Assembly: GCA_021779195.1 (NCBI GenBank)
Contig: JAJYBB010000009.1
Span: 1 to 64,000 of the forward strand
DNA from: Bacteroidota bacterium
GTDB taxonomy: Bacteria; Bacteroidota; Bacteroidia; Bacteroidales; Paludibacteraceae
Direction of reading: 5' to 3'
DNA: 64,000 nt
Positions within the stretch are counted from its first letter, which is position 1, and the number at the start of each line of letters is the position of its first letter. Shown piece after piece: positions 19,344-55,890 of the stretch. The position numbers were made by a program, and so were the translations under genes. The notes beneath the pieces were generated by a model. That model was not told the DNA's origin, made no database searches, and worked only from the letters and a program-made list of their open reading frames with translations.

Positions 19344-19352
19344 TTAGTTCCT

Positions 19353-23949: not shown

Positions 23950-23981
23950 ACAAAATAAAAAAATAAGGCTGAATTTATATT

Positions 23982-39659: not shown

Positions 39660-40316
39660 GTGATTTTAAAAAATAATTTATTAAATTTCACCATATTAGT
39701 TTTATTGACATTATTGTTTACTTTCGAATTTAATAATTTCATCCAAACTGACAGTTTAATAACTCAAAACCTTTCTGATAAATATACTCAAGAAGTTATA
39801 ACCCATTCTCTTAACTTACGCCATCAATGGGCATGGGCAAGTTATATTTTTGTACCTATATTTTTGTATATAACTACATTGCTGATAGCTCTTATTATTC
39901 TGTTGGTTATTGAATTGTATTATATCAATGAAAGCAGACAAAAAGTAAAGTTTAAAGATACTTGGAGAATTGTATTAATGGCTCAATGGAGTGCTTTAGC
40001 ATCTATTTTTGTAAAAGTGTTTTGGTTTGGTTTTTATCATACTCAATATTCTTTAGAAGAATTACAATCATTTTCACCTCTATCATTAATTAATTTATTT
40101 GATCGAAAAACCTTAGATGTCTGGTTAGTGTATCCTATCCAGTTAGTCAATCCTTTTGAACTTGTATACTGGATTATATTGGTAATAGGAATAAAACAGT
40201 TGCTAAAAAGGAGTTGGTTAAAGTCTTTTGAAATGGTTTTTCTTTCGTATGGACTTACTCTTATAGTGTGGGTAGTTGTCATTATGTTTATTTCACTTAA
40301 CTTTAGTCAGTCATGA
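39660..40316 (+). CDS. Polytopic membrane protein of unknown function
   Basis: The start appears to be GTG 39660; no nearby in-frame ATG exists. The 218 residues contain five predicted transmembrane helices (about 9-26, 62-88, 107-127, 160-185, 190-213). I recognise no catalytic motif; the overall look is of a Yip1-like or accessory membrane protein. The last 4 bp overlap the thioredoxin-like gene (ATGA), so the two products are likely made together and may act as a pair. Confidence 0.68.
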   Translation: MILKNNLLNFTILVLLTLLFTFEFNNFIQTDSLITQNLSDKYTQEVITHSLNLRHQWAWASYIFVPIFLYITTLLIALIILLVIELYYINESRQKVKFKDTWRIVLMAQWSALASIFVKVFWFGFYHTQYSLEELQSFSPLSLINLFDRKTLDVWLVYPIQLVNPFELVYWIILVIGIKQLLKRSWLKSFEMVFLSYGLTLIVWVVVIMFISLNFSQS

Positions 40317-40828
40317 AGAAAAACATTAGAATAGTTATACCAATAATCGTAATTGTTGCTTTGTGTTTTACTGGTTACAAAATGCTTGAACTATCAAGGC
40401 AGAAAAAGAATTTGGCAGAAAAGATAGTTCACATACCTTCATTTGAATTAAAATCAACATTAAATGAAAACTTTACCAATAAAAATTTAAAAGGAAGTGT
40501 ACCTGTGGTGTTCTTCTATTTCAATAGTGAGTGTGAGTTTTGTCAAGCTGAGATACAAGATATTGTACGAAATATCAAAAAATTTGAAGGCATTCAATTG
40601 ATATTTGTATCATTCGAACCCGTACAGAAAATAATCATGTTTCAGGCAACTTACAAACTTGACATTTACGATAATATAGTCTTTTTAAGCGATTACAAAA
40701 ACACTTTTTCTGAAACTTTTGGAGTTAAGACGTTACCTAGTTCGTTGGTTTACGATAAGACCAGCAAATTAGTGAGCCGAAATAATGGTGCTGTAAAAGT
40801 GGATTATCGAACCAATATCTTTATTTAA
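40313..40828 (+). CDS. Membrane-anchored thioredoxin-like protein (TlpA/redoxin type)
   Basis: The 171-residue protein has an N-terminal signal anchor (about 7-22) and a periplasmic thioredoxin fold: V-P-V-V-F-F-Y-F-N-S-E-C-E-F-C (redox pair Cys74/Cys77, motif C-E-F-C), then a cis-Pro region T-L-P-S-S-L-V-Y. Such proteins reduce, oxidise or isomerise disulfides outside the cytoplasm. Next to a peptide with five core cysteines, a role in its disulfide maturation or in reducing leader-peptide exporters is plausible but unproven. The frame ends soon after the fold, so it is near minimal length. Confidence 0.82.
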   Translation: MKKNIRIVIPIIVIVALCFTGYKMLELSRQKKNLAEKIVHIPSFELKSTLNENFTNKNLKGSVPVVFFYFNSECEFCQAEIQDIVRNIKKFEGIQLIFVSFEPVQKIIMFQATYKLDIYDNIVFLSDYKNTFSETFGVKTLPSSLVYDKTSKLVSRNNGAVKVDYRTNIFI

Positions 40829-40906
40829 TGTTTTGTCTAAAATAAAGAAGTATAAAAATGATATTGAGATTTAATATTAATTTAGCCACAATAATAGAAA
40901 AAATAG

Positions 40907-42532
40907 ATGTTTAGAAACAGAAAGAAGAGAATTAAAGAGATGTTGCTTAGTGAGTTTGGGAATTTAAAAACTGACTCTTTTGATTTTGTAGATATAGAAA
41001 GTTATTTCCGAAAGAAAGACCATTCTGCGGCTTTTCAAACCCTGTCTGACAAAACCTGTAACGATTTAGATTTTCAAGAATTATTCATGTTTATCGACCG
41101 AACAAACTCAAAAGTAGGACAACAATATTTTTATAATAAGTTAAGGAATATTCCTGCTGACTCAACAGAGAATATCAGGAATGAAAGACTTTTGGATGAG
41201 TTTACGAATAATCCCGACTTTAGAGTATCTGTTCAAAGCCAATTGAGCAAATTGAATGATCGGGAAGTATATCATATTGCTTCGCTGTTTCAGGATGAAA
41301 TCTTAAAATCACCCAAGTGGTATTTTATTGTTCCGTTGTTATCTTTTACAAGTTTGTTGTCCTTTATAATGGCATTTTTTAATCCAGTATTCTTTCTTGT
41401 AATTTTAGGTTTATCCATTATCAACATTGTTATTCATTTCTGGAATAAGAAAAACCTATTCAATTATTTTAGTTCTATTCCACAACTATCAAATCTAAAT
41501 GGCGTTGCTCAAGAATTATTTAAAAATGACAATTTAAAGGAAATAAATCCGAATTTGATGAAATCGGCGAGTGTCATTAATAAGGTCAGCAATCGAATGT
41601 CATTCTTCAATCTCGAAGTAGAAATACAAACCGACCAGCGAATGTTTTTTTGGTTAGTGTTTGAGCTTGTGAAAATCGTATTTCTGATTGAACCTTTGTT
41701 TTTGTTTGGAACTTTAAAGCGTATTGACACAAAAAGAAAAGAGATTGAAGATGTATTTCTGTTTGTTGGAGAAATAGATGCTATTATATCAATTGCTTCA
41801 CTACGAAAGGGACTTAACCACTTCTGTACACCGAAAATTATTGACGGACAGAAAAGACTTTTTGCTCAGGAAGTATATCACCCATTAATTGAGAATTGTG
41901 TAAAAAACAACTTAAAAGTAAACGATAAATCAGTTTTACTGACAGGCTCAAATATGTCAGGGAAAACTTCATTTATTCGTACTATTGCCATAAATGTAAT
42001 AACAGGTTTGACTATAAACACCTGTTTTGCAGAACATTTTTCTATGCCGAGAGTGCGTGTATTTTCTGCCATAAGAATTAGTGATGATTTAATGAACGAC
42101 AGAAGTTATTATTTTGAGGAAGTCATGACAATCAAAGAAATGATAGATAAAAGCAAAGGCGGAAACTTAAACTTGTTTTTACTCGACGAGATATTTAAAG
42201 GAACTAACACTGTCGAACGAATTTCGGCTGGCAAAGCCGTTTTATCATCACTAAACGAAGGAAATAATATCGTTTTTGTATCGACACATGACATTGAATT
42301 GGCTGATTTGTTGAAGAATGAATATGATTTATATCACTTCAGCGAAATTGTAGACCACAAAACAGTTGATTTTGACTACACGCTAAAAGAAGGAAAATTA
42401 AAGAACAGAAACGCAATCAGAATACTTCAAATCAACGATTATCCCGAAAGTATTATAAAGGAAGCAATCGAAATATCTGAAGAACTTGACAAAATTACTG
42501 TGGCTAACACACAGTCATTATTGGTAAATTAG
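40907..42532 (+). CDS. Membrane-associated MutS-family ATPase
   Basis: The 541-residue protein lacks the mismatch-recognition domain I of MutS. It has a MutS-like lever/core region (about 55-130), two strongly hydrophobic helices (about 138-178), another hydrophobic stretch near 245-270, and a C-terminal MutS ATPase domain with Walker A T-G-S-N-M-S-G-K-T, Walker B L-F-L-L-D-E-I-F-K-G-T and S-T-H-D. This class is widespread in Bacteroidota and is annotated as 'MutS-related'; no role in mismatch repair is shown. It follows the thioredoxin-like gene by 78 bp in the same direction. Confidence 0.83.
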   Translation: MFRNRKKRIKEMLLSEFGNLKTDSFDFVDIESYFRKKDHSAAFQTLSDKTCNDLDFQELFMFIDRTNSKVGQQYFYNKLRNIPADSTENIRNERLLDEFTNNPDFRVSVQSQLSKLNDREVYHIASLFQDEILKSPKWYFIVPLLSFTSLLSFIMAFFNPVFFLVILGLSIINIVIHFWNKKNLFNYFSSIPQLSNLNGVAQELFKNDNLKEINPNLMKSASVINKVSNRMSFFNLEVEIQTDQRMFFWLVFELVKIVFLIEPLFLFGTLKRIDTKRKEIEDVFLFVGEIDAIISIASLRKGLNHFCTPKIIDGQKRLFAQEVYHPLIENCVKNNLKVNDKSVLLTGSNMSGKTSFIRTIAINVITGLTINTCFAEHFSMPRVRVFSAIRISDDLMNDRSYYFEEVMTIKEMIDKSKGGNLNLFLLDEIFKGTNTVERISAGKAVLSSLNEGNNIVFVSTHDIELADLLKNEYDLYHFSEIVDHKTVDFDYTLKEGKLKNRNAIRILQINDYPESIIKEAIEISEELDKITVANTQSLLVN

Positions 42533-42585
42533 CAATAGTCGACTAATTTCTTATATCAAAACAATTTTATTCTGACTCTAAATTT

Positions 42586-42804
42586 ATGTTGAAAACTATT
42601 CCAGAAAAGCATATTATAAAGCTAAAGGATATAACTCACATTCAAAATGAATCAAATTTTATAGTTATTTATACTAGCCAAGACAAAAATTATTCATCAG
42701 AAGAAGCATTTAATAAGGTCGAAATAGGGCTTAAATAAAAAGGGTTTATAAAAGTCAATCATAATACTTTGTCTTTTATTTTTATACCCATTACATTATA
42801 CCTA
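42586..42804 (+). pseudogene. Remnant of a LytTR-type DNA-binding domain
   Basis: ATG 42586 opens a 50-codon frame: I-I-K-L-K-D-I-T-H-I-Q-N-E-S-N-F-I-V-I-Y-T looks like LytTR strands 1-3 (family: D-I-x-Y-I-E-A-x-x-N-Y). A TAA at 42736-42738 interrupts it, but the same frame continues with K-G-F-I-K-V-N-H-N-T-L, which resembles the L-x-x-x-x-F-x-R-v-H-R-S-y segment that should follow. The stop and the lack of receiver or upstream portion suggest a decayed response regulator; a short 50-residue product cannot be excluded. Confidence 0.5.
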
Positions 42805-42829
42805 TCCACCACATTAATTGCTCTTATTA

Positions 42830-43130
42830 CTTTACTTGTTATTACATTACATCAACTAAATGAGCAGAAGATGGCGCTGGTTGGTGGGATTTTCTGGTAG
42901 TTTTTTGTCTTTTCATCCTGTTTGAAGCCTGTTTGCTGGTACAAACGGAGAGGAAAAAATGGGTTCGAATGGTACACGTTCCGTTTGAAACTGAAAAAAT
43001 TCTTTTCAAAAGTAAGTGGGTAAGCTCCACAACTAAAAACTTCCCATGGAATGGCAACCGCCAATGAAGCACCACGTAAAGCGGCGGATACTCCTTGCCT
43101 CAATTGTTTCAGTAAATCAGTGAAATAGAA
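42830..43130. other. GC-richer block without a convincing gene
   Basis: This stretch between the LytTR remnant and the Ehr operon has noticeably more G and C than its flanks. Two overlapping minus-strand frames (77 and 83 codons) and short plus-strand pieces exist, but none has a plausible start, domain or neighbour logic. From memory, similar translated pieces recur in Bacteroidota intergenic regions, so it may be a dispersed repeat or the remains of a mobile element; I cannot verify this. Confidence 0.35.
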
Positions 43131-43193
43131 TTTAATTGTTATTATTTATGCTTATTATCAGGCGTGCCAACGGATAGTTCATCTATTTTTTTG

Positions 43194-43201
43194 TAATTTT
43201 G
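43194..43201 (+). promoter_or_regulatory. -7 promoter element for the Ehr operon
   Basis: TAATTTTG, matching TAnnTTTG, 25 bp before the ATG at 43227. It would drive all seven following genes. Confidence 0.55.
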
Positions 43202-43226
43202 CAAGCGCTGTAACTTTGATTAAAAA

Positions 43227-45224
43227 ATGGCTAATTTATTAAATTTAACTTGGGTCATCGTCTTTACAGGACTTTTGATCTTATTTTTTGTTCCCAGCAA
43301 GCTGAAATGGTTTACGGCTATGCTTACGGTAGTCCTAACTGCGTTTATAACCAGTACGTTGGCTTTCAGGGCAATAATGGGTAATCCTTTTAGTGTTGTA
43401 TTCGATGGCGGTGTCGTGGCTGGTAATGTTTTGATCCGAATCGATCAACTTTCAGCCTGGTTTATTCTGATTATCAACTTTACTTCGATTACCGGTCTAT
43501 TTTATGGAGAAGGTTATCTGAAAGCATATACCAGTGAACCTCGAAAACTTTCGCTGCATTGGATTTTTTATGTCATTTTTCAGCTTTCAATGATTTGGGT
43601 CTGTATGATTCAAAATGGGTTGGTTTTCCTGATTGCATGGGAAATTATGTCTATTTCGTCGATGATGTTGGTTGTTTTCGAAGGACATAAACCTTCGACG
43701 ATAAAAGCAGGTTTGAATTATTTAGTGCAAATGCATATTAGTGTCGTGTTACTCACCATTGGCTTTATCTGGCTGTATTTTAAGACAGGATCATTTAGTT
43801 TCGACGCATTCAGTCAGTATTTTGCCGCATTTAACAATGTTGGGCTTTTTATGATTTTCTTTGTTGGATTTGGATTAAAAGCCGGATTTATTCCCCTTCA
43901 CACTTGGCTGCCTCATGCCCATCCCGCAGCTCCTTCACATATTTCGGGAGTAATGTCGGGAGTAATCGTAAAACTGGGTATATATGGCATTTTGCGAGTT
44001 GCATTTAATTTGAAAAGTGAGTTTTTTGTTTTAGGCGAAATATTGGTTGTGGTTTCAGTTCTTACCAGTCTTTTTGGCATCATTAATGCGGCTGTTCATC
44101 GCGATATTAAAAAGATGCTGGCTTATTGCACCATTGAAAATATTGGAATTATCGGTATCGGTATTGGTATTGGACTTATCGGAGTGGGGGCAAATAATCC
44201 AATCTTATATTTTTTGGGCTTTGGCGGGGCTTTGCTTCACGTGCTTAATCATTCATTGTTCAAGTCGTTGTTGTTTTTTTCTGCTGGCTCGATATACCAG
44301 CAAACTCACACCCGTAATATGGATAAATTAGGCGGATTGATGAAATCTATGCCCCGTACGGCTCTTCTTTTTTTGATGGGATCGGTCGCCATCGGAGGAC
44401 TTCCCCCTTTTAATGGATTTATTTCTGAATTTCTGATTTACAGTGGATTAATCGAAGGACTTAAATTGCAAAGCAGTGTTCAAATTTTGATTATGCTTTT
44501 GTCGCTGGCTGGCTTGAGTATAGTAGGTGGACTTTCAATTTTGACTTTTACTAAAACTTTTGGTACCGTTTTTCTTGGCACTGAGCGTCAAAAATCGGTT
44601 CATAAACCTCATGAGGTTTCGATTTTAATGCTGATTCCGCAATATTTTATAGTGGCTGCCATGCTGACCATTGCTTTTTTTCCTGGTTTTTATATTGATT
44701 TTATTGGTCGGATATTGACCTCCCTCAGTTTTCGTCCGTTGATATCGGGTGTTCAACCTTTTGGGAATTACCCTGACATTCTTGGTAATATTAGCTTTTA
44801 TTCTTTTGTACTGATTATACTGATTGTTGTTTTTGCTCTGATTCGGAAATTGGTTACGGCAAGAGTTACACGCACCATTTCACCTACCTGGGGTTGCGGA
44901 TATACGGTGCCAAGTAGTAGTCTGCAATATACAGGAAAATCCTTTTCGAAATCATTGAGTAAAATGTTCAATTTTGTTGTTATTGAACGGAAACAGTATG
45001 ATGAATTAAACCGTACTGAAATTTTTCCTGAAGTTCGTGAATACAAATCGCATTATTTTGATTTTTTCGAGTACCGATTCATTAAATTTATGGTTAATCG
45101 ATTGATATATAGTGCAAATTATTTTAATTTTGTTCAGAATGGACGGGTACAATCTTATATTTTATATGGGCTTGTTTTCATGTTGATTGTTTTTCTGTTA
45201 ACCATATTTCGTATTGTCCGATGA
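43227..45224 (+). CDS. HyfB/NuoL-type ion-translocating membrane subunit, copy 1
   Basis: The 665-residue protein has about 15 predicted helices and the proton_antipo_M core of complex I antiporter-like subunits. The conserved Glu of TM5 is in L-I-A-W-E-I-M-S, the TM7 Lys in G-L-K-A-G-F-I-P-L-H-T-W-L-P-H-A-H-P-A-A-P with a further Lys in G-V-I-V-K-L-G-I-Y-G, so the channel looks intact. A C-terminal extension carries T-W-G-C-G-Y-T-V-P and Q-Y-T-G-K-S-F, also found in copy 2. It is the first gene of the operon and overlaps copy 2 by 4 bp (ATGA). Confidence 0.92.
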   Translation: MANLLNLTWVIVFTGLLILFFVPSKLKWFTAMLTVVLTAFITSTLAFRAIMGNPFSVVFDGGVVAGNVLIRIDQLSAWFILIINFTSITGLFYGEGYLKAYTSEPRKLSLHWIFYVIFQLSMIWVCMIQNGLVFLIAWEIMSISSMMLVVFEGHKPSTIKAGLNYLVQMHISVVLLTIGFIWLYFKTGSFSFDAFSQYFAAFNNVGLFMIFFVGFGLKAGFIPLHTWLPHAHPAAPSHISGVMSGVIVKLGIYGILRVAFNLKSEFFVLGEILVVVSVLTSLFGIINAAVHRDIKKMLAYCTIENIGIIGIGIGIGLIGVGANNPILYFLGFGGALLHVLNHSLFKSLLFFSAGSIYQQTHTRNMDKLGGLMKSMPRTALLFLMGSVAIGGLPPFNGFISEFLIYSGLIEGLKLQSSVQILIMLLSLAGLSIVGGLSILTFTKTFGTVFLGTERQKSVHKPHEVSILMLIPQYFIVAAMLTIAFFPGFYIDFIGRILTSLSFRPLISGVQPFGNYPDILGNISFYSFVLIILIVVFALIRKLVTARVTRTISPTWGCGYTVPSSSLQYTGKSFSKSLSKMFNFVVIERKQYDELNRTEIFPEVREYKSHYFDFFEYRFIKFMVNRLIYSANYFNFVQNGRVQSYILYGLVFMLIVFLLTIFRIVR

Positions 45225-47248
45225 TTTTACTCAACTTATTCCTTTTGATTCCGGTATTTACCGCAGTGCTCATTCCGTTTTTAAGTGCGAAGGGGAAAGC
45301 AATTGCGGTATATGCAGCTGTAATTTTAATGGCTGTTATTTCGGGTTATCAGGCTGTTGAGGTTTTGATGGGGCATGAATTTAATTTGATGCTTTCGGGT
45401 AATTTTGTGAGTGGGGACATTCGGTTGAGAATAGATGCTCTCTCGGCATGGTTTATCTTAATTATTAACTTTAGTTTTCTGACGGGAGGATTTTACGGAA
45501 TATTTTACATGAGCTCTTACCGTCTGCAAACGAAGAACTTATCATTACAAGCGATCTTATTTATTTTGCTTAACGCTTCGTTGACCGGACTTTGCGTCAT
45601 ACAAAATGGGTTTATTTTCCTGATAGTTTGGGAGATAATGGCTTTGTCCGCATTTCTGAGTATTTTGTTCGAACATGAAAATGCTGCCGTTGTGAAAGCG
45701 GGTATCAATTTCCTGATTCAATCGCATATTTCCATTCTTTTCTTGATGATTGGCTTTATTTTGGTAAGTAGTAAAACAGGAAGTTACGACTTCGACTCAA
45801 TTTATCTTTATTCTTTTCATCATCAGGGAGCCTTTTCGCTTTTACTGTTCGGGTTCTTTTTTATTGGTTTTGCCATCAAAGCGGGTTTTGTTCCGTTTCA
45901 CACCTGGTTGCCTTATGCTCATCCGGCAGCACCGGCTCATATCTCGGGAATTATGTCGGGGGTGTTAATCAAAATCGGTATTTTCGGCATATTACGTATG
46001 CTTTTGCTTATTCATGTAGATTATAAGATGGTGGGAAGTGCAATTTTACTCTTGTCGATAATTTCCGGACTATATGGTGTAATGCTGGCTATTCTCCAAC
46101 ATAACTTGAAAAAACTGTTAGCTTATCACAGCATTGAAAATATAGGCATTATCGGTATAGGCATTGGGTTGGGATGTATTGGACTCGGTTTTCACAACCC
46201 GGTGTTGAGTTCGCTTGGTTTTGCAGGGGCATTGTTACATGTGCTCAATCATTCCTTATTTAAATCACTGTTATTTTTTACGGCTGGTAACGTTTACCAG
46301 GCTACACATACGCTTGATATCGAAAAATTAGGGGGTTTAGCTCGTAAAATGCCTCAAACCGCACTTTTGTTTTTATTGGCAGCTTTGGCTATTTGCGGGT
46401 TGCCACCGTTTAATGGATTTATTTCTGAATTTCTGTTGTACAGCGGCTTGTTTGGCTGGTTGCATCAAGCTGACGTTGCCTGGGTGATTGGTATAGGATT
46501 GAGTTTTTCGGCATTGGTGTTGATTGGAGGATTGGCAATGATTTGTTTTACCAAAGCTTTTGGTATTGTTTTTCTGGGTTCAGAACGACATGAATTTTCT
46601 CACGAAATTAAGGAAGTTTCTGTTCTTCAGCTTGTTCCGTTGTACTTTATTGGCGCATTCATTATCGCAATAGGGCTTTTTCCCAATACTTTTTTAAATA
46701 TTCTGGTTCAACCGGTTCAACTTTTCACCCGTTTACAGGCACTGCCTTTTACTTCGTTTCAGGGACAAGGTACTGAAGTCTTGCAATCGGTTGGTCGGTC
46801 ATCGTGGCTGTTAATTGCTTTAGTTATGGTGGTTTGGGGAATCAGAAAGTTTATTCAACAAAAAAAGTTGAGAGCTCAATCGCCTACCTGGGGTTGCGGT
46901 TACACGGCACCTACTCCTCAACTTCAATACACGGCAAGTTCTTTTGTGAAAAGCTACACTAAACTTTTCGGATTGATTTTTATGATTCAAAAAAATGAAA
47001 AAGAGTTGACCGGCGTTTTTCCTTCAGAAGCCCACTATGAAACCAATCCTTACGACAAAATCGAAAAATGGTTGATCGATTATCCGCTCACCTATTTAAA
47101 ATTGTTTCTAAATGGGTTTCGGTTTGTTCAAAATGGGAAATTGCAGTTTTATATCTTGTACGGTATTTTGTTTATTCTTTCCGTTTTGAGTATTCCACTT
47201 ATATATGAGCAAATTAACGGGTTTATCGAATTTTTAAAACAGCTGTAA
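45221..47248 (+). CDS. HyfB/NuoL-type ion-translocating membrane subunit, copy 2
   Basis: The 675 residues are a full-length paralogue of the preceding protein: same helix layout, L-I-V-W-E-I-M-A, A-I-K-A-G-F-V-P-F-H-T-W-L-P-Y-A-H-P-A-A-P, L-A-Y-H-S-I-E-N-I-G-I-I-G-I-G-I-G, and the C-terminal T-W-G-C-G-Y-T-A-P. Both copies keep the charged channel residues, so both probably move ions. The pair looks like an old tandem duplication because the sequences have diverged widely outside the channel. The HyfC-like gene follows after 2 bp. Confidence 0.92.
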   Translation: MILLNLFLLIPVFTAVLIPFLSAKGKAIAVYAAVILMAVISGYQAVEVLMGHEFNLMLSGNFVSGDIRLRIDALSAWFILIINFSFLTGGFYGIFYMSSYRLQTKNLSLQAILFILLNASLTGLCVIQNGFIFLIVWEIMALSAFLSILFEHENAAVVKAGINFLIQSHISILFLMIGFILVSSKTGSYDFDSIYLYSFHHQGAFSLLLFGFFFIGFAIKAGFVPFHTWLPYAHPAAPAHISGIMSGVLIKIGIFGILRMLLLIHVDYKMVGSAILLLSIISGLYGVMLAILQHNLKKLLAYHSIENIGIIGIGIGLGCIGLGFHNPVLSSLGFAGALLHVLNHSLFKSLLFFTAGNVYQATHTLDIEKLGGLARKMPQTALLFLLAALAICGLPPFNGFISEFLLYSGLFGWLHQADVAWVIGIGLSFSALVLIGGLAMICFTKAFGIVFLGSERHEFSHEIKEVSVLQLVPLYFIGAFIIAIGLFPNTFLNILVQPVQLFTRLQALPFTSFQGQGTEVLQSVGRSSWLLIALVMVVWGIRKFIQQKKLRAQSPTWGCGYTAPTPQLQYTASSFVKSYTKLFGLIFMIQKNEKELTGVFPSEAHYETNPYDKIEKWLIDYPLTYLKLFLNGFRFVQNGKLQFYILYGILFILSVLSIPLIYEQINGFIEFLKQL

Positions 47249-47250
47249 AT

Positions 47251-48156
47251 ATGTTGAGTTTAATATTAATCAGTATTGCCGCACTTTTTTTTACCGGCAT
47301 CATTATCCGAACCAAAAGTATCGCTTCGGGTCGAAAAGGTCCGGGGATATTGCAACCTGTTTTTGACGTGCTGAAACTGTTCAGAAAGGGATCGGTGTAT
47401 AGTGAAACCTCCGGATTTGTTTTCAGGATAGCCCCGATCATTTATTTTTCATCGGTGGTGCTTGCCATGCTGACAGTGCCATTTGGAGCGTCCAAAGGAT
47501 TCATCAGCTTTAACGGCGATTTTATATTCTTTGCTTATGTGCTTGCATTGGGTAAATTTTTCAGTATCATTGGTGCGTTGGATACAGGCAGTAGTTTTGA
47601 AGGTATGGGTGCAAGCCGTGAAGCCCTTTACTCCATGTTTGCCGAACCTGCATTTTTTATTCTGATGGGGTCGTTGGCTTTAATTACCGGACATACTTCT
47701 TTTCAGGAAATTTTTTCGACCCTCCATTTAGGATCCTCCATAACCTATGCTATTGCTATTTTAGCAAGTTTTGTTCTGTTGCTCATTGCCATGATCGAAA
47801 ATAGTCGTATGCCTATCGACGATCCGAAAACCCATCTGGAATTGACTATGATTCACGAAGTTATGATTCTTGACAATAGCGGATTTGATTTGGGATTGAT
47901 TCTTTCGACCGGTTATATAAAGTTTGCCATGTATGGAGCTTTGATTTTTAATCTTTTTGTCGGCCTGATACCTTACGGCTATGCCATTTTGATCTTTTTT
48001 GCCTTGCAAGCATTTTTGGCTATCTTAATTGGCATAATCGAATCATTTATCGCTCGTTCACGCATGAATCATAACGCACAGTTTATTGTGGTCCTGTCAT
48101 CGGTTTCCTTGTTGATTTTCTTTGGGGTTTTGCTCGTGTTGGGTAAATTTATTTAA
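47251..48156 (+). CDS. HyfC/NuoH-type membrane subunit
   Basis: This 301-residue protein has eight predicted helices and belongs to the NuoH/HyfC/EchB family that anchors the peripheral arm in the membrane. Recognisable features are G-R-K-G-P-G-I-L-Q-P near the start (the quinone-side loop region in NuoH), N-S-R-M-P-I-D-D-P-K-T-H-L-E-L-T (acidic loop after TM5) and M-I-H-E. The D-P-x-T-H-x-E-L motif is intact. It follows the second HyfB-like gene by 2 bp and is separated from the HyfE-like gene by 63 bp. Confidence 0.92.
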   Translation: MLSLILISIAALFFTGIIIRTKSIASGRKGPGILQPVFDVLKLFRKGSVYSETSGFVFRIAPIIYFSSVVLAMLTVPFGASKGFISFNGDFIFFAYVLALGKFFSIIGALDTGSSFEGMGASREALYSMFAEPAFFILMGSLALITGHTSFQEIFSTLHLGSSITYAIAILASFVLLLIAMIENSRMPIDDPKTHLELTMIHEVMILDNSGFDLGLILSTGYIKFAMYGALIFNLFVGLIPYGYAILIFFALQAFLAILIGIIESFIARSRMNHNAQFIVVLSSVSLLIFFGVLLVLGKFI

Positions 48157-48219
48157 TAATTTTTTTATCCGATTAATTTATAAATTCTTATCAATCAAAT
48201 TACTGTAAATAAATATATT

Positions 48220-48852
48220 ATGTTACATGTACTGTTAATAATTTTTCTCATTACGCTGTTTTACTTAGCTATTGCCAACCGTATGACCACCTACATTAAT
48301 TTGTTGGCATTGCAGGGGGTTTTACTTTTTTTGGTGGCGTTTATGCAGCTGAGTCATATCAACACGGTCAATTTGGTTTTAATTTTACTTGAAACCATAG
48401 TTTTTAAATCTATTGCAGTTCCGGTATTTTTAAGGCGGGTACTGAAACGAAATCATATTACACGGGAAGCCGAACCTTTTGTTCCTAACTTTGTATCATT
48501 GATTATCACTACTTTAATAGTAATTATTACAATTATTCTTTCGAATTCGATGCAGGAAAATAATTTAGATAAGATTTTCTTCGTGGTTGCACTATCCACT
48601 TTGTTTACAGGACTTTATTTTATCGCTTCTCGCCGAAAAATTATCACGCACGTGATGGGTTATCTCATTATCGAAAATGGAGTATTTGCACTTTCGTTGG
48701 CTGTGGGAAATGAAATGCCCATGCTTGTCAATTTGGGAATCATGCTCGATATTTTTGCCAGTGTGCTTATTTTAGGTATTTTCCTGAATAAAATTGGCGA
48801 TGTGTTTAAAGACATCGATGTCAATCAACTTACTAATTTGAAAGACTTTTAA
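48220..48852 (+). CDS. HyfE-type (NuoK-like) membrane subunit
   Basis: The 210-residue protein has six predicted helices. It resembles HyfE of hydrogenase 4, a NuoK-like unit with extra helices: L-A-L-Q-G-V-L-L-F near the start, an acidic residue in L-L-E-T-I-V-F-K-S-I, and Y-L-I-I-E-N-G-V-F-A-L-S in the second half, which is the conserved Glu-containing NuoK helix. It lies within the operon and is followed after 55 bp by the HyfF-like gene. Confidence 0.85.
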   Translation: MLHVLLIIFLITLFYLAIANRMTTYINLLALQGVLLFLVAFMQLSHINTVNLVLILLETIVFKSIAVPVFLRRVLKRNHITREAEPFVPNFVSLIITTLIVIITIILSNSMQENNLDKIFFVVALSTLFTGLYFIASRRKIITHVMGYLIIENGVFALSLAVGNEMPMLVNLGIMLDIFASVLILGIFLNKIGDVFKDIDVNQLTNLKDF

Positions 48853-48907
48853 GAAATGGATTGCTGGAGATTTTAAGTTATAAATGAAAAAATTGAAAAT
48901 TTGAATT

Positions 48908-50338
48908 ATGATAATACCCTATTTAATTGGTTCAGTGGGCATCTCGCTCGGTTTATTCCTTAATCGGAATAAAACTGTCAATTATATTTTAATTTGGCTG
49001 TTCGTGTTTTTGCAGTCAGCTTTTTCGGTTTATGTCGGCTTTCATTATAATGACACTGAAGCGACTTATTTCACCTTCGATGCACTGGGACTCATTATGT
49101 TATTCACTGCAACGTTGATTATTATTCCCGCGGCCATTCACAGTTATATTTACATTGAAGAAAGCGAAGAGAAAACCCCGAAAACACGAGCTACCTATTT
49201 TGGAGCGTTCGCGTTGTTGGTCATGGCGGTAAGTGCCGCTTTTTTAGCAAATCATATTGCTGTGGTGTGGATTTTTACCGAAATAACCACGCTAAGCGCT
49301 TCGGCTTTAATTTATCATCATCGCAACAAATTGGCATTGGAAGGAACCTGGAAATATGTTTTTATTTGTGCCGTGAGCATTACTTTTGTTTTTATCGGCA
49401 TCTTGTTTTTAAGTCTGTCTCTGCCAAAAGCCGCTGCCGACGATTTATCGTATAAAAGTCTGATTCAACATCATTTACTATTGAATACTTCATGGCTTCA
49501 ATTGGCTTTTCTATTTATTTTTACCGGATTTACGGCCAAAATCGGACTTTTTCCCATGTTTACAGCCGGGATCGATGCCAAAGATAAAGCCCCCGGACCG
49601 GCTGCTGCTTTGCTTTCAAGTATAATCATGTGTATGGGATTTGTCGGTATTTTTCGGTTTTACACGGTGATAGCCAACACGCCTTTGATGCGTTGGGCAA
49701 GTTTGGTGGTGGGCATTGCCGCGTTCCTGTCTATTTTCATTGCCGCAGTTTATATGATTAAAGTGAAGAATATCAAGCGAATGATGGCATATTCGAGTGT
49801 AGAACACATGGGACTGGTTATGCTTGGACTTGCCGCCGGAGGAATTGGTTATTATGCGGCAATTCTTCATTTGGTACTGCATTCGCTGGTTAAATCGAGT
49901 CTGTTTTTTCAGTACAATCAACTTTATCGTGTTTACAAAAACAAAAGCATTTATCAATTGGGTAATTATTTTAAATACAATACGACCGGTGCCATTGTGT
50001 TGCTGTTGGCGTTTATCAGTGTAACCGCTATGCCTCCCTCGGGAATGTTTGTGAGCGAGTTTATGATCTTCAGATCATTGTTTCAGTCCAATCAACTTGC
50101 TTTGCTGATTGTGGTTTTATTGCTGCTTACCATTATTATCTGGGCATTTGCAAAAAATATTTTTAAAATTCTATTTATTCCGGTTGTTGATTTCGACGAA
50201 TCAAATGTTCCTAAAATAAGTCCATGGCGTTCGGTTTCACAGTTTCTGCTCATTGGCGGGGCAGCTTATCTGGGCTTGAATCCGCCAATGATTTTTGTTG
50301 ATTTAATTCAAAACAGCATCCGACTTTTACCACATTGA
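48908..50338 (+). CDS. HyfF/NuoN-type ion-translocating membrane subunit
   Basis: The 476-residue protein is the third antiporter-like subunit of the operon, with about 13-14 helices. The TM5 Glu lies in W-I-F-T-E-I-T-T-L-S-A-S-A, the TM7 Lys in T-A-K-I-G-L-F-P-M, with D-A-K-D-K-A-P-G-P-A-A-A-L following, and the TM12-like segment includes V-S-E-F-M. It is shorter than the two HyfB-like proteins. The order B-B-C-E-F matches hydrogenase-4 and Ehr operons. The large subunit follows 13 bp downstream. Confidence 0.9.
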   Translation: MIIPYLIGSVGISLGLFLNRNKTVNYILIWLFVFLQSAFSVYVGFHYNDTEATYFTFDALGLIMLFTATLIIIPAAIHSYIYIEESEEKTPKTRATYFGAFALLVMAVSAAFLANHIAVVWIFTEITTLSASALIYHHRNKLALEGTWKYVFICAVSITFVFIGILFLSLSLPKAAADDLSYKSLIQHHLLLNTSWLQLAFLFIFTGFTAKIGLFPMFTAGIDAKDKAPGPAAALLSSIIMCMGFVGIFRFYTVIANTPLMRWASLVVGIAAFLSIFIAAVYMIKVKNIKRMMAYSSVEHMGLVMLGLAAGGIGYYAAILHLVLHSLVKSSLFFQYNQLYRVYKNKSIYQLGNYFKYNTTGAIVLLLAFISVTAMPPSGMFVSEFMIFRSLFQSNQLALLIVVLLLLTIIIWAFAKNIFKILFIPVVDFDESNVPKISPWRSVSQFLLIGGAAYLGLNPPMIFVDLIQNSIRLLPH

Positions 50339-50351
50339 TAATGCGTGAACT

Positions 50352-51851
50352 ATGAATTACATAAATATTAAAAACAACCAAACAATTGCGCTTTCGGCAA
50401 TTCCGGAAAGTAATTATGAATCATTTTTCGATCAAAATCTCGATTTGATGCGAGGGCATACCGAACGGCATTGTGTGAATTATTTCGGATATAAAGTTGG
50501 AAATAATGTGAAATTAATCTGTTGTATCGCCGATGATCTTACCCACGAAATTTTCATTTCTACTTGTCTGGTGAATAAAGCCCATTCGTTGGAATCAATG
50601 AGTAGGGAAATGCTTTGTTTCGAAAAGTTCGAACGCGAAATTCATGAAAATTTTGGTATACCTTATGTTGATCATCCCTGGCTGAAACCGGTTCGCTATC
50701 CTGAAAATCGGGATGATCTTTCACAAACAATTGAAAACTACCCGTTTTATTCGATTGAGAGCGAGGAATTGCACGAAGTTGGTGTTGGTCCCATTCATGC
50801 AGGGATTATTGAACCCGGACATTTTAGGTTTATTTGCAACGGCGAACAAATTCTTCATCTCGAGATTCAACTCGGATACCAGCATCGGGGCATCGAACAA
50901 CTTTTTATCGACAAAAAACAATTGCTTCAACGTGCAACATTGGCCGAAAATATTGCCGGTGATACAGTGGTGGGTCATAGTACGGCTTTTGCCCAGGTAT
51001 GGGAAAGTTTATGCCACTTTGAACCAACCCAAGCAATGCAGTTCTCGCGTACACTGGCATTGGAATTAGAACGAATTGCCATTCATACAGGCGATTTAAG
51101 CGCAGCTTGCACCGATGTGGCGTATCAACTGGGAAGTGCAGTGTTTGGTCGACTGAGAACTCCTATCGTTAATTTCATGCAGGAATGGGGTGGCAATCGG
51201 TTATCCAAAGGATTAATACGTCCAGGGTACAGCCCATTCCCATTTACTCCTTCATTAGCAAAAAGACTGATAGAGATTCTGGATATTTTTGAGCCTGAAT
51301 TTGATGAAATGGCGAATAAAACATTTTCATTATCAAGTGTTTTGTCTCGATTTGAACGTACAGGGGTGGTTTCAAACACCGATGCCTTAAATATCGGTAC
51401 GGTTGGAATGGCTGCCCGAATGACCAATTTGAATCGGGATATACGGGCTTCACACCCTACTGATTATTATCTTCAACTTCATCATCAACCGATTTTAAAA
51501 CGCCATGGTGATGTGTATTCGCGCATTCAAATCCGACGGTTGGAAGTGAAACAATCTATTCAGTATATCCGAACCTTACTTGCCGGTATGCCCAATTTGG
51601 ATGTTCAACCGAAGGAATTCAAAATTCCACAGTCCAATGCTTTCAGTATTTCATTGGTCGAAGGATGGCGGGGCGAAATTTGCCACTGCGCCATTACTGA
51701 TCCCACCGGAGATCTTCTTCATTACAAAATTAAAGATCCTTCGTTTCACAATTGGTTAGCATTAGCCCTTTCAGTTCGAAATAACGAAATTTCCGATTTC
51801 CCGATTTGCAACAAAAGTTTTAATCTTTCGTATGCGGGACACGATTTATAA
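50352..51851 (+). CDS. HyfG-like large subunit (NuoC-NuoD fusion) lacking NiFe ligands
   Basis: The 499 residues fuse a NuoC-like domain (about 1-120) to a NuoD/hydrogenase-large-subunit domain (about 140-499: G-V-G-P-I-H-A-G-I-I-E-P-G-H-F, L-G-Y-Q-H-R-G-I-E). In active group 4 hydrogenases the first motif is E-R-V-C-G-I-C-G-x-x-H-S; here the aligned block is E-N-I-A-G-D-T-V-V-G-H-S, so the two Cys are Ala202 and Thr205. The C-terminal D-P-C-x-x-C motif is replaced by D-F-P-I-C-N-K-S-F-N, leaving no CxxC. It therefore cannot bind NiFe in the usual way; this is the mark of Ehr complexes. The HyfI-like gene starts 4 bp later. Confidence 0.92.
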   Translation: MNYINIKNNQTIALSAIPESNYESFFDQNLDLMRGHTERHCVNYFGYKVGNNVKLICCIADDLTHEIFISTCLVNKAHSLESMSREMLCFEKFEREIHENFGIPYVDHPWLKPVRYPENRDDLSQTIENYPFYSIESEELHEVGVGPIHAGIIEPGHFRFICNGEQILHLEIQLGYQHRGIEQLFIDKKQLLQRATLAENIAGDTVVGHSTAFAQVWESLCHFEPTQAMQFSRTLALELERIAIHTGDLSAACTDVAYQLGSAVFGRLRTPIVNFMQEWGGNRLSKGLIRPGYSPFPFTPSLAKRLIEILDIFEPEFDEMANKTFSLSSVLSRFERTGVVSNTDALNIGTVGMAARMTNLNRDIRASHPTDYYLQLHHQPILKRHGDVYSRIQIRRLEVKQSIQYIRTLLAGMPNLDVQPKEFKIPQSNAFSISLVEGWRGEICHCAITDPTGDLLHYKIKDPSFHNWLALALSVRNNEISDFPICNKSFNLSYAGHDL

Positions 51852-51855
51852 ATAA

Positions 51856-52623
51856 ATGGTTGATATGATCTTGGATAATCTCAAAATAATGTATCATCAG
51901 GGAAAACAATTTATTCCCGATGTTACCACAGCGCAGGTTCCCGGCATTTTCAGAGGCCGACCGCTCATCACTGTCGCAAAAGTTGACGAGATGGCACTGC
52001 AATCTGTTTGTCCCACCAATGCCATCGGAGTTGCTCCGGTGAGCGTTGATCTAGGCAAATGTACTTTTTGCGGGGAATGTGCTGCCCGTTTTCCTGAAAA
52101 AATAAGTTTTACAAAAGACTATAAATTAGCAACAAACGAGCGGAATCGTATGATTATTTCCGAAAACGATAACCATCCTATCGAGCTGAATTATGACATT
52201 ATCAGGCAGGAAATTCGCGGAATTTTTGGTCGATCGTTAAAATTGAGGCAAATCTCTGCCGGAGGAGATAATAGCTGCGAATGGGAGCTGGGTGCAGCCA
52301 ATAATGTGCAATTTGACATGAGCCGCTTTGGAATTGAATTTGTTGCTTCACCCCGTCATGCCGATGGAATTGTAATTACAGGTCCGATTACCAAAAATAT
52401 GGCAGCAGCCATTCAGCTTTGCTATGATGCTACCCCTGACCCAAAAATCATTGTTTTAGTGGGCACAGATGCCATTAGTGGAGGTATTTTTGCAGGGAGT
52501 TCGGCTCTTGATCGCAGTTTTTTAGATCGTTATCCCGTTGATTTATATATTCCCGGTAATCCAGCTCATCCATTAGATATCATCAATGGATTGTTGGATC
52601 TGACAAGAAGAAAGAAATTCTAA
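51856..52623 (+). CDS. HyfI-like small subunit fused to a one-cluster ferredoxin domain
   Basis: The 255 residues join a HyfH-like ferredoxin domain (about 20-90) to a NuoB/HyfI domain (about 110-250: S-R-F-G-I-E-F-V-A-S-P-R-H-A-D, D-L-Y-I-P-G). Of a two-cluster ferredoxin only Cys52 (V-C-P-T-N-A-I) and Cys69/72/75 (C-T-F-C-G-E-C) remain; these are exactly the four ligands of one [4Fe-4S] cluster, while every ligand of the other is gone (Phe79 replaces its last Cys). In the NuoB-like part the proximal-cluster Cys are Asp138, Cys141, Asp205 and Asn235, so that cluster cannot form normally. Last gene of the operon. Confidence 0.9.
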   Translation: MVDMILDNLKIMYHQGKQFIPDVTTAQVPGIFRGRPLITVAKVDEMALQSVCPTNAIGVAPVSVDLGKCTFCGECAARFPEKISFTKDYKLATNERNRMIISENDNHPIELNYDIIRQEIRGIFGRSLKLRQISAGGDNSCEWELGAANNVQFDMSRFGIEFVASPRHADGIVITGPITKNMAAAIQLCYDATPDPKIIVLVGTDAISGGIFAGSSALDRSFLDRYPVDLYIPGNPAHPLDIINGLLDLTRRKKF

Positions 52624-52671
52624 TTCGATTCGGCTCATTTAAGATGAAAGAATCGGAGAATGTGCTGGATC

Positions 52672-52713
52672 AAAAAAAGAGAAAAATTCAACTACTGAAT
52701 TTTTCTCTTTTTT
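52672..52713. terminator. Two-way terminator between the Ehr operon and rplS
   Basis: AGAGAAAAATTCA (52678-52690) and TGAATTTTTCTCT (52696-52708) pair perfectly with a 5-nt loop, and an A-run and T-run flank the stem. It serves both converging transcripts. Confidence 0.88.
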
Positions 52714-52733
52714 AATTTTTTACGATAACAAAT

Positions 52734-53081
52734 TTACATGCGTCTTTCTTTAATTCTAGCTTTCTTGCCGGTAAGTTTACGTAAATAGTATAATTTAGCC
52801 CGACGTACTTTGCCGTGTTTGTTTACGGTGATACTTTCGATAAAGGGTGAATCTAATGGGAAAATACGTTCCACTCCAACATTTCCCGACATTTTGCGTA
52901 CGGTAAAACGTTTTTTGTCCTGGTGTCCCGAAATTTTGATTACATCACCTCTAAATTCCTGAATACGTTCCTTGTTACCTTCTTTAATGCGATAAGCTAC
53001 TGTAATGGTATCGCCGGCTTTAAACTCAGGATGCGTCTTTTCGACTAAAAATGCTTGTTCTGCAACTTTAATTAAGTCCAT
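52734..53081 (-). CDS. rplS: 50S ribosomal protein L19
   Basis: The 115-residue protein matches L19: [26 protein letters not shown]-like N-terminus, [18 protein letters not shown] and a basic end [10 protein letters not shown]19 sits at the subunit interface near the 30S head. It is monocistronic here, with its own -7 element and terminator. Confidence 0.97.
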
Positions 53082-53167
53082 TGTCTTTCTTTGTTTTGTT
53101 TAATAACTACGTGCAATATTCACAGACCTCGCTAATTCTGTCAGAGATTACACCTAAATTTGGTCTG

Positions 53168-53175
53168 CAAAAGTA
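53168..53175 (-). promoter_or_regulatory. -7 promoter element for rplS
   Basis: Minus strand TACTTTTG, matching TAnnTTTG, 87 bp before the rplS ATG at 53081. The gap 53082-53411 otherwise holds only the typA promoter. Confidence 0.5.
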
Positions 53176-53376
53176 CTGTTTTTTTTCTATTTGACAATAT
53201 TTTATTGTGTTTTTTATCTGAAAGTTTGATTTCTATGTGTTGAATCAAGGTTGTCAATTTCCATTTTCAACCTGAAATAATGCATTTTTAATGGGTGGTT
53301 AACCTATGAAAAACCTTAATTATTACAGTTATAACAGTTACTGGTTAATAAAAACTGTAAATTCAATAAATTTTGC

Positions 53377-53384
53377 TACCTTTG
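53377..53384 (+). promoter_or_regulatory. -7 promoter element for typA
   Basis: TACCTTTG, matching TAnnTTTG. It lies 28 bp before ATG 53412 and downstream of the alternative upstream start at 53373, which supports the shorter protein. Confidence 0.6.
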
Positions 53385-53411
53385 CACCCCATAAAAAAAG
53401 GATTGTGTTAC

Positions 53412-55211
53412 ATGCAGAAAATTAGAAATATTGCAATTATCGCCCATGTTGATCATGGCAAAACTACGCTGGTCGACAAGATGTTATTAGCAGGTCACCT
53501 GTTTCGCGACAACGAAAACACAGGTGAGTTGATCATGGATAATAACGACCTTGAACGTGAAAGAGGAATTACCATTCTCGCTAAAAATGTATCAATTGAA
53601 TATGCTGGTTACAAAATAAACATTATTGATACTCCAGGACATGCCGATTTTGGGGGGGAAGTAGAACGGGTATTAAACATGGCTGACGGAGTTTTGTTGC
53701 TGGTTGATGCTTTCGAAGGACCCATGCCACAAACCCGTTTTGTACTTCAAAAAGCCTTACAAATGGGGCTTTTGCCTATTGCGGTGATTAATAAAGTGGA
53801 TAAACCCAATTGTCGTCCTGACGAAGTGCACGAAGCTGTTTTCGACTTGATGTACAATTTAGATGCTACCGAAGAACAACTCAATTTTCATACGATTTAC
53901 GGCTCTGCAAAGCAAAATTGGATGTCAGAAGATTGGAAAAACCCTTCTGATAATATACTACCTTTACTTGATGCTATCATCAAATATATTCCTGAACCAT
54001 TGTATCTGGAGGGGACACCTCAAATGCTGATAACTTCACTTGATTATTCGTCTTATGTTGGTCGAATTGCTGTTGGTCGTGTTCATCGGGGTACTTTACG
54101 CGAAGGAATGGATGTGAGTTTGGTTAAAAGGGAAGGACAAATTGTGAAGTCGCGCATAAAAGAATTGCATACTTTTACCGGTTTAGGGCGTACGCGTGCA
54201 TCAGAAGTGAAATCGGGCGACATTTGCGCTTTAGTGGGTATTGAAGGTTTTGAGATTGGAGATACCATAGCCGATGCACAGCAACCCGAAGCATTGACAC
54301 CAATTTCTATTGACGAACCCACAATGAGTATGGTTTTTACGATCAATAATTCTCCATTCTACGGAAAAGAAGGAAAATTTGTTACTTCGCGCCACATTCA
54401 TGAACGATTGATGAAAGAGTTGGATAAAAACTTAGCTTTGCGCGTTGAAAAAAATATTGATTCAGATATTTGGCATGTTTACGGAAGAGGTGTACTTCAT
54501 TTATCTGTTCTTATCGAGACCATGCGTCGCGAAGGTTACGAAATGCAAGTTGGTCAACCACAGGTTATATTCAAAGAAATAGACGGTAAACGATGCGAAC
54601 CGATCGAACAACTTACCATTAACTTGCCCGAAGAGTGTTCAGGTAAGATTATTGAGATCGTTGCAATGCGAAAGGGCGAAATGTTGAGCATGGAAGTTAT
54701 GAATGACAGGATTCAGCTTGAATTCCTGATTCCTTCACGCGGAATAATTGGACTTCGAAATAATGTGTTGACTTCCTCTGCCGGTGAAGCAATCATGTCT
54801 CACCGTTTCTTAGAATATCAACCTTACAAAGGTGAAATTGAAAAAAGAAATAATGGTTCAATTATCGCTATGGAAAGTGGTACAGCTTTTGCATACGCCA
54901 TTGATAAATTGCAGGATAGAGGTCGGTTTTTTATCTTTCCACAGGAGGAAATTTACTCGGGACAAGTTGTCGGTGAAAGTTCTAAAGAAGGAGATTTAGT
55001 GGTAAATGTTACAAAGTCTAAAAAACTTACCAATATGCGTGCTTCAGGTGCGGATGATAAAGCTAAACTAATACCGCCAATTGTTTTTAGTCTCGAAGAG
55101 GCTTTGGAATATATAAAAGAAGATGAATATGTGGAAATTACGCCCAAAAGTATTCGACTTCGTAAAATTTATTTGGACGAAAATGAACGAAAACGTATGA
55201 CGAGAAAATAA
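53412..55211 (+). CDS. typA: Ribosome-binding GTPase TypA/BipA
   Basis: TypA is an EF-G-like GTPase needed for 50S assembly and stress adaptation. I choose ATG 53412 ([10 protein letters not shown]), giving 599 residues, the usual length; an ATG at 53373 would add 13 residues and lies before the likely promoter. G1 is [10 protein letters not shown]2 R-G-I-T-I, G3 D-T-P-G-H, G4 N-K-V-D, followed by domains II, III, V and the TypA-specific C-terminal domain. No neighbours are co-transcribed; the barrel protein gene 52 bp downstream may share read-through. Confidence 0.97.
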
Positions 55212-55263
55212 TTTTTTTAAGTCATTTAATTTTTAAAAAATACAAATCATCAATTATTCTTGC

Positions 55264-55890
55264 ATGAAAAGTAAAATAATTGTTTTGTTGTTGGTGTTTA
55301 CAAGCAGTGTGTATGCCCAACTTGGAATTAAAGCAGGCGTTAATATGGCAAACGAAATTAAATCTTTCAGTCAGTCCAATATCGCTACTGCTTTTACTTC
55401 TAAAAATCTTACCGGCTATCAAATCGGACTTATTTATCAGGCAATGCCGAAAAAATCGGGACTTGGTGTCGAATTTGGCATTTTATTTTCTCAGAAAGGT
55501 AGCTCTTTTTCAGATAGTACTGTTAATTCAATTCAACAAGGTTACAAAGAATTAAATTATGCCGAGGTTCCACTAAATCTTCGTTATCGATTTAATTTTG
55601 GATTTATTGGAATTTACGGTATTGCAGGGATTTATGGCGGTTATGCCTTGAATGGCAAAACCGTCAACGATATTACCAATACCATTCACAATGAAACTTT
55701 CCAAACTTTCATGGATCATCTCGATTATGGATATAATTTAGGTGCAGGTATGGAATTTTTCAAGAAAATTCAACTGGGGGCTACCTGGACTCAGGGTATT
55801 CGAAACACGGCGTACACCAATACGGTTATTCCAACACCCGATACCAGTACGAATCGGGTATTTACGGTCAATTTAGTGTATTTGTTTTAA
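55264..55890 (+). CDS. Outer-membrane beta-barrel protein (PF13568-like)
   Basis: The 208 residues start with a signal peptide (M-K-S-K-I-I-V-L-L-L-V-F..., cleavage near V-Y-A) and continue as alternating-strand sequence typical of the Bacteroidota eight-stranded porin-family barrels: L-G-I-K-A-G-V-N-M-A-N at the start, G-V-E-F-G-I-L-F-S, N-Y-A-E-V-P-L-N-L-R-Y-R-F, G-A-G-M-E-F, and a terminal V-F-T-V-N-L-V-Y-L-F ending in aromatic Phe. Substrate and function are unknown. Confidence 0.88.
   Translation: MKSKIIVLLLVFTSSVYAQLGIKAGVNMANEIKSFSQSNIATAFTSKNLTGYQIGLIYQAMPKKSGLGVEFGILFSQKGSSFSDSTVNSIQQGYKELNYAEVPLNLRYRFNFGFIGIYGIAGIYGGYALNGKTVNDITNTIHNETFQTFMDHLDYGYNLGAGMEFFKKIQLGATWTQGIRNTAYTNTVIPTPDTSTNRVFTVNLVYLF

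Follow-up and report, generated by a model that had tools for sequence, protein, structure and literature searches.

A conserved Ehr-type complex of a Bacteroidota bacterium in which ligands of the N2 iron-sulfur cluster are replaced

The window analysed here is a stretch of 64,000 nucleotides from a Bacteroidota bacterium of the family Paludibacteraceae (contig JAJYBB010000009.1, positions 1 to 64,000). Its plus strand carries an operon of seven intact genes at 43227-52623 that is of the Ehr type, the energy-converting hydrogenase-related complexes (Table 1). A preliminary description of this DNA had listed HyfB-, HyfB-, HyfC-, HyfE-, HyfF-, HyfG- and HyfI-like genes; open reading frames (ORFs) lie exactly at these positions and the families agree. 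Neighbouring genes are spaced from a 4-base overlap up to 63 bases. In Pfam, the seven products match Proton_antipo_M (three products), NADHdh, Oxidored_q2, Complex1_49kDa with Complex1_30kDa, and Oxidored_q6 with Fer4, where Oxidored_q2 (22.9 bits, cut-off 26.1) and Complex1_30kDa (21.8 bits, cut-off 22.5) stay below their cut-offs. The two HyfB proteins are 46% identical, which had been missed earlier, as had the ferredoxin domain and the lost N2 ligands of HyfI. HyfB/C/E/F/G/I-like subunits in one operon are the set expected of Ehr complexes, which were reportedly defined by Marreiros et al. 2013. The operon had also been described as closed by a terminator. A stem-loop with a T tail is indeed present, but since terminator-like sites were no commoner in the scanned stretch than in shuffles (11 against 10.6), it can only be called plausible.

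Table 1. Genes and sites of the Ehr-type operon in the window
Feature	Position	Strand	Basis
hyfB1, antiporter-like subunit, 665 aa	43227..45224	+	Proton_antipo_M 1.6e-52
hyfB2, antiporter-like subunit, 675 aa	45221..47248	+	Proton_antipo_M 5.9e-54
hyfC, NuoH/HycD-like subunit	47251..48156	+	NADHdh 3.8e-35
hyfE, NuoK-like subunit	48220..48852	+	NCBIfam hydrogenase 4 membrane subunit 1.5e-19, below its cut-off
hyfF, third antiporter-like subunit	48908..50338	+	Proton_antipo_M 1.7e-39
hyfG, NuoCD/HycE-like large subunit	50352..51851	+	Complex1_49kDa 5.2e-29
HyfG A202-T205, site of first [NiFe] CxxC pair, cysteines lost	50955..50966	+	alignment
HyfG S493-G496, site of second [NiFe] CxxC pair, cysteines lost	51828..51839	+	alignment
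hyfI, ferredoxin domain fused to NuoB/HycG-like small subunit	51856..52623	+	Oxidored_q6 7.9e-21, Fer4
HyfI C52, C69, C72, C75, sole complete [4Fe-4S] motif left (cluster II)	52009..52080	+	
HyfI D138-N-S-C141, site of N2 (proximal-cluster) cysteines one and two	52267..52278	+	
HyfI D205, site of third N2 cysteine	52468..52470	+	
HyfI N235, site of fourth N2 cysteine	52558..52560	+	
Terminator-like stem-loop with T tail	52673-52713	+	

The ferredoxin domain forms the N-terminus of HyfI. It keeps the four cysteines of one cluster and misses the ligands of cluster I, whereas the domain of relatives with an intact N2 site has eight cysteines for two clusters. By the ligand pattern of complex I, we take the remaining motif to be N6a and the lost one to be N6b, the neighbour of N2. 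At the N2 site itself HyfI has Asp138, Cys141, Asp205 and Asn235, so that three of the four cysteines are replaced; the tandem-cysteine N2 site that marks NuoB in complex I is not found. Relatives were collected from 84,980 species genomes, where 354 of 427 matched stretches encode relatives, and the best 80 of these 354 were analysed. The comparison covered 84 Bacteroidota HyfI rows, 78 of them distinct; nine of the 80 loci had no HyfI row longer than 150 aa and were not counted. Position 138 is Asp in all 78 distinct proteins, position 141 is Cys in 75 (Gly, Tyr and Val once each), position 205 is Asp in 76 and Glu in two, and position 235 is Asn in 77 and Tyr in one. The cluster II cysteines are present in every row that covers them. 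A sequencing error behind the lost cysteines was rejected, since 78 distinct relatives are concordant.

The solved chains closest to HyfI were 6cfw_J (MbhJ of Pyrococcus furiosus, 1.2e-24) and 7z0s_G (HycG of the Escherichia coli formate hydrogenlyase, 5.8e-22), in agreement with Foldseek. For 7z0t_G, VIA-align gave a Z of 11.6, and many complex I chains scored within 1 of it. With HyfG as the query, 7z0s_E (E. coli HycE) was closest in the profile search (1.6e-37), followed by MbhL (1.2e-34), and again closest with Foldseek (1.6e-19). The fold searches retrieved known relatives alone, and the lack of other folds carries no evidential weight. In contrast to the window's proteins, formate hydrogenlyase and Mbh keep their proximal-cluster cysteines, and HycE also keeps both [NiFe] CxxC pairs.

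A tree was computed from HyfG, HyfC and HyfI, the last without its ferredoxin part and its N2 columns. It comprised 35 Ehr rows, two Nuo rows and E. coli HycE/HyfG, but no Mbh, Ech or Mbx. The 35 Ehr rows form one clade (support 100/99), with the two E. coli enzymes and the two Nuo rows outside. The window's HyfG and HyfI do not fall inside the active group 4 hydrogenases represented here, a placement that the preliminary description had named as incompatible with its assignment. The N2 ligands are intact in 21 of the 35 Ehr rows and lost in 14, including the window. Since the loss lies within the Ehr clade, we treat it as variation within Ehr and do not exclude the window's complex on that account. 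All three cluster motifs are kept in Variovorax Ehr-A, Caballeronia and the genomes G213, G300 and G281-type; cluster I is lost with N2 kept in G466, G277, G576 and G296; both are lost in the Bacteroidota clade with G208, in Allomeiothermus and in Mycobacterium branderi. By parsimony on this tree, built without the columns concerned, N2 was lost three times and cluster I five times. A single N2-lost clade was rejected by the approximately unbiased (AU) test (p-AU 4e-37; 1e-43 on the first tree). Long branches occur; with Caballeronia omitted, M. branderi still stands outside the Bacteroidota clade, at an exact place that is weakly supported.

Every N2-lost lineage has Asp or Glu at the third N2 position. 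M. branderi (plasmid pJCM12687) and Allomeiothermus silvanus (plasmid pMESIL01) share with the window the fusion of a one-cluster ferredoxin to HyfI, the replaced N2 cysteines and the acidic third residue, but they branch separately and have N-D-D-A and T-D-E-S where the window has D-C-D-N. Across HyfG, HyfI and HyfC, N2-lost and N2-intact proteins are told apart by just five columns, all in HyfI: D138, D205, N235, S140 and A237. Because three ligand positions and two neighbours alone divide the groups, the change at N2 is specific and not part of a general decay: as judged from the alignments, the N2 site is altered and the remainder of the complex is not.

Some of the compared loci showed arrangements of their own. 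On the M. branderi plasmid pJCM12687, the Ehr-like operon that lacks N2 and cluster I (L184, 4221-11660) lies near a universal stress protein gene. On a Variovorax plasmid (L167), two different Ehr operons (6845-14129 and 17541-24725) are separated by a few kilobases; one has a ferredoxin-HyfI and the other a short HyfI, and genes for a universal stress protein and a spermidine synthase lie between them. In L035, on the same contig as L060, hyfI (2381-3136) is found about 8 kb from hyfB1-hyfG (11071-19711) on the opposite strand, and this detached HyfI keeps the Asp/Cys/Asp/Asn pattern. L116 has a second, partial HyfI-like ORF (20552-21220) after a HyfG-like fragment, resembling a broken duplicate. 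Phage records gave partial NuoB-like matches, none spanning 80% of HyfI.

HyfG has A, T, S and G at the four [NiFe] cysteine positions of E. coli HycE. It terminates three residues past S493-G496, and the C-terminal tail of HycE is absent. No CxxC pair was found at either site in any of 80 Bacteroidota and 26 other Ehr HyfG proteins, while E. coli HycE and HyfG showed both pairs in the same comparison. The C-terminus NKSF(N/D)LSYxGxDL of the window's HyfG is shared with Variovorax, Rhizobium, Paraburkholderia and other Ehr. The structure model of HyfG has a predicted local distance difference test score (pLDDT) below 50 at residues 127-176 and 480-499. The hyp maturation genes and formate dehydrogenase had been reported as missing nearby. 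HypD was found nowhere in the window's genome (G000, 96% complete), the positive control matching in 4 of 14 genomes; no PF00384 molybdopterin oxidoreductase was found there either, and the sole PF00374 match was below cut-off, at NuoD. Neither the two CxxC pairs with a cleaved C-terminal tail nor the maturation genes of a group 4 [NiFe] hydrogenase are seen. A functional [NiFe] hydrogenase was rejected on the missing CxxC pairs, HypD and above-cut-off PF00374. The comparisons support an Ehr complex and not a hydrogenase, in agreement with the earlier description.

According to the excerpts available of three publications, Ehr complexes lack the [NiFe] ligands and have no agreed function (PMC6349859, PMC10284858, PMC10432482). 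The window's complex resembles the described ones in its HyfBCEFGI-like subunits, the missing [NiFe] ligands and the HyfG C-terminus; it differs in the loss of N2 and cluster I, the ferredoxin fused to HyfI and the two HyfB genes. Our literature search found no description of N2 loss in Ehr or of a link to SulP transporters, though an earlier report in Marreiros 2013 is possible. With complex I (Nuo) the complex shares homologues of NuoB, CD, H, K and LMN and the conserved channel residues, but the operon has no NuoEFG or NuoG-like gene and no N2, and it is placed apart in the tree. Unlike the Mrp antiporter with its MrpA-G composition, it includes homologues of NuoB, NuoCD and NuoH.

The membrane arm was examined for the residues of the ion channels. 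The preliminary description had noted that the channel Glu and Lys are kept in the three antiporter-like subunits, and each indeed has the Glu of transmembrane helix (TM) 5, the Lys of TM7 and the Glu of TM12: E139, K218 and E401 in HyfB1, E138, K220 and E403 in HyfB2, and E125, K211 and E384 in HyfF. The Lys of TM8 is K249 in HyfB1 and K251 in HyfB2; HyfF has C242 instead (N263 in E. coli HyfF). E58 and E152 of HyfE are conserved at over 97%. In HyfC the TM5-6 loop is three residues longer in the alignment, an insertion common to Variovorax Ehr-A. The ratio of nonsynonymous to synonymous substitution rates (dN/dS) was determined among near relatives with 8 to 13 pairs per gene for six of the seven genes, hyfE left out. 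The medians were 0.094 for hyfB1, 0.113 for hyfB2, 0.035 for hyfC, 0.041 for hyfF, 0.073 for hyfG and 0.067 for hyfI. By these measures the operon is under strong purifying selection, and its membrane arm is, as far as residues can tell, built for ion movement.

The uninterrupted order B1-B2-C-E-F-G-I is found in 44 of the 80 related loci; the other 36 meet a contig end, contain an extra called ORF, miss one HyfB or have HyfI apart. A full-length ferredoxin-HyfI occurs in 13 of 200 genomes of the window's family (nine in its genus and four in genus g33), and a match stronger than 1e-40 was obtained in 17 of 395 genomes surveyed across the phylum, the window's included. The search for co-conserved genes that had been suggested for this operon yielded, over the 80 loci, only a Crp-like regulator in 13 (adjacent in nine) and single-lineage synteny, and no conserved donor or acceptor gene next to the operon. 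The regulator is divergent and upstream of hyfB1 in L071, L076, L072, L086, L110, L113, L123 and others. In the window the neighbours are housekeeping genes, a MutS-domain-V protein upstream and ribosomal protein L19 with a gene that we take to be TypA-like downstream. Carbon-uptake genes directly downstream, with a 97-aa P-II and a 506-aa transporter as candidates, were rejected, because these ORFs read as a coiled-coil/ZapA-like pair and as RNase Y-like; the ZapA-like and RNase Y-like labels are our assumption, given without a family search.

Regulator and anion-transporter genes accompany the Ehr operon in some relatives. At 12 of the 15 N2-intact loci of the phylum, a gene for a helix-turn-helix (HTH) protein with an EIIA_2 domain lies at most 7 bases from hyfB or overlaps it. 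In one further locus (G213) a SulP-STAS protein encoded between hyfG and hyfI includes the EIIA_2 domain as part of a fusion, so that 13 of 15 loci have an EIIA either at the head of the operon or, as a fusion, within it. SulP genes were counted in 60 selected Ehr-bearing genomes, comprising 16 of 16 genomes of the phylum survey and 7 of 12 of the family other than the window's own and 36 of the 80 loci; L071 and L076, with SulP known beforehand, were included. When weak matches (G521, G604, G210, G215 and a second one in G592) were set aside, 17 of the 60 genomes held 18 strong SulP genes. Nine of the 18 are at most 12 kb from the Ehr operon, beside or inside it in nine of the 17 SulP-bearing genomes, and none was near the 28 other NuoB-like places among the matches listed. 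Four arrangements were seen. In five genomes of a single family SulP is upstream together with EIIA; in G602 and G605 it is divergent, beyond the Crp-like regulator; in G300 it directly follows hyfI; and in G213 it lies within the operon. When the five f18 genomes and also G602 with G605 are each counted as one lineage, SulP and the Ehr operon are adjacent in 4 of 13 SulP-bearing lineages (binomial 9e-7 with p 0.006, a post hoc value that assumes 4-Mb genomes). In G300, kdpA (L187, 10040-11692) is divergent and upstream of the Ehr operon, with SulP after hyfI. Since SulP is absent from many Ehr genomes, the window's included, we regard the association as a possible setting and not as a fixed partner. 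This setting may be the homeostasis of ions, pH or inorganic anions, as the company of SulP and EIIA in relatives suggests.

The operon encodes a seven-subunit member of the complex I and group 4 hydrogenase superfamily, which would translocate ions without being driven by electrons through N2. We favour this reading tentatively and rate it a little below an even chance. The nickel-iron site and two of the iron-sulfur clusters are lost yet the complex is strongly conserved, and therefore ions are probably moved in another way than by the textbook electron-driven one. In the E. coli formate hydrogenlyase the relay steps are under 14 Å, according to the part of that report available (PMC9474812). 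With N2 and its neighbour cluster gone, there is no known way for electrons into the cavity between HyfI, HyfG and HyfC, which favours an arm that is not driven by electrons. Electrons would be unable to reach this cavity, and the ion-translocating arm would run without electron transfer through N2. The cavity, with its invariant Asp and invariant Asp/Glu at the former place of the cubane, may form a putative site for a proton, a metal or a small ligand. This site might gate ion movement or be driven by it, and the remaining cluster could be structural, redox-sensing or the entry for another partner. A fuller version is possible but doubtful: a machine of the complex I class without redox chemistry at its coupling site, in which the N2 cubane has given way, independently in at least three lineages, to a site with two carboxylate-bearing positions (Asp/Cys/Asp/Asn in Bacteroidota). 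The chemistry of an ion or a small ligand, perhaps an inorganic anion, in the former hydrogenase/quinone cavity would then drive or gate the three antiporter-like subunits.

Several observations weigh against an arm that is not electron-driven and against its proposed setting. One [4Fe-4S] motif is invariant, which argues for a residual redox or Fe-S role. The arrangement of the clusters is taken over from homologues. In the structure model of HyfI, pLDDT is below 50 at 138-140 and 146-151, so the geometry of the N2 site is unreadable; the model was discarded for the Asp/Cys/Asp/Asn site for this reason. The SulP link was first noticed and then tested largely on the same genomes. Strong SulP genes are absent from 43 of the 60 Ehr-bearing genomes, SulP is visible in just 2 of the 80 Bacteroidota loci within the locus DNA, an HTH-EIIA gene is found in none of the 80, and both SulP and PTS_EIIA_2 are missing from the window's genome.

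The complex could still be a redox-driven ion pump, in which a reduced ferredoxin or flavoprotein feeds the single [4Fe-4S] cluster and either an acceptor lies nearby or reduction alone triggers conformational pumping. The cluster II cysteines, kept in every covering row, and the intact membrane arm agree with this. The N2-intact relatives, such as Variovorax Ehr-A, hold all three cluster motifs, and the ancestor was therefore plausibly a redox enzyme. However, the relay is broken twice by the loss of both N2 and cluster I, and a donor or acceptor gene is not conserved beside the operon. We consider such a pump somewhat unlikely. The preliminary description had proposed an ion pump driven by a redox or conformational event, probably with a ferredoxin-like donor; the pump residues are kept, while the known electron route is interrupted. 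As one [4Fe-4S] motif is left, a redox role may persist.

An inorganic-carbon machine, where the Asp/Cys/Asp site would hold a metal and CO2 hydration or bicarbonate movement would be coupled to proton flow, is less easily reconciled with the data and seems rather improbable. The SulP family includes bicarbonate carriers, and SulP transporters adjoin Ehr operons or sit inside them; sulfate, however, is also a SulP cargo, and the window's genome has no SulP. A precedent is DAB2 (DabA2-DabB2), whose NuoL-like subunit serves CO2 hydration coupled to the proton-motive force in a complex thought to run without a redox reaction, as described in the available part of PMC13144422. The same part gives the DAB2 zinc ligands as two Cys and one His with an Asp-Arg pair, unlike the HyfI site. 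A NuoL-like subunit is common to both systems, but no DabA domain (PF10070) was matched in the seven proteins of the window, and C141 is not invariant (Cys in 75 of 78).

It is very unlikely that the Ehr complex is an accessory of the genome's own complex I, partnering a nuo complex that has no nuoEFG. The genome does carry another complex I operon (G000:C28, L050 6927-17516) with nuoA, B, CD, H, I, J, K, L, M and N, where nuoE, nuoF and nuoG were not found, the genes being assigned by order, length and similarity. Near the Ehr operon, a NuoEFG input module is likewise missing among the ORFs at 40000-56000, as had been stated before. In two genomes of genus g33 (G114, L042 5770-19901; G060, L046 4222-19899) an Ehr operon with one HyfB stands directly before nuoA-N, hyfI leading into nuoA on the same strand. 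This adjacency was seen in one genus only; in the window, and elsewhere in its genus, the Ehr and nuo operons are not neighbours. A decaying relic without function, as the successive loss of the [NiFe], cluster I and N2 ligands and the patchy presence in 13 of 200 family genomes might suggest, is hardly credible with median dN/dS values of 0.035 to 0.113, many invariant columns and seven genes kept together.

It has long been asked how electron transfer is coupled to ion pumping in complex I. With a conserved relative that has the ion-moving arm, has neither N2 nor its neighbour cluster and has N2-intact kin, this coupling becomes directly testable. The repeated occurrence of SulP transporters and EIIA-type regulators next to Ehr operons would also give these widespread orphan complexes a first functional setting. 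If the single remaining cluster suffices for redox work, the complex would bound the minimal length of the electron wire. If the arm instead runs without electron transfer through N2, it would offer, within the complex I superfamily, a natural experiment that separates the pumping of ions from the transfer of electrons.

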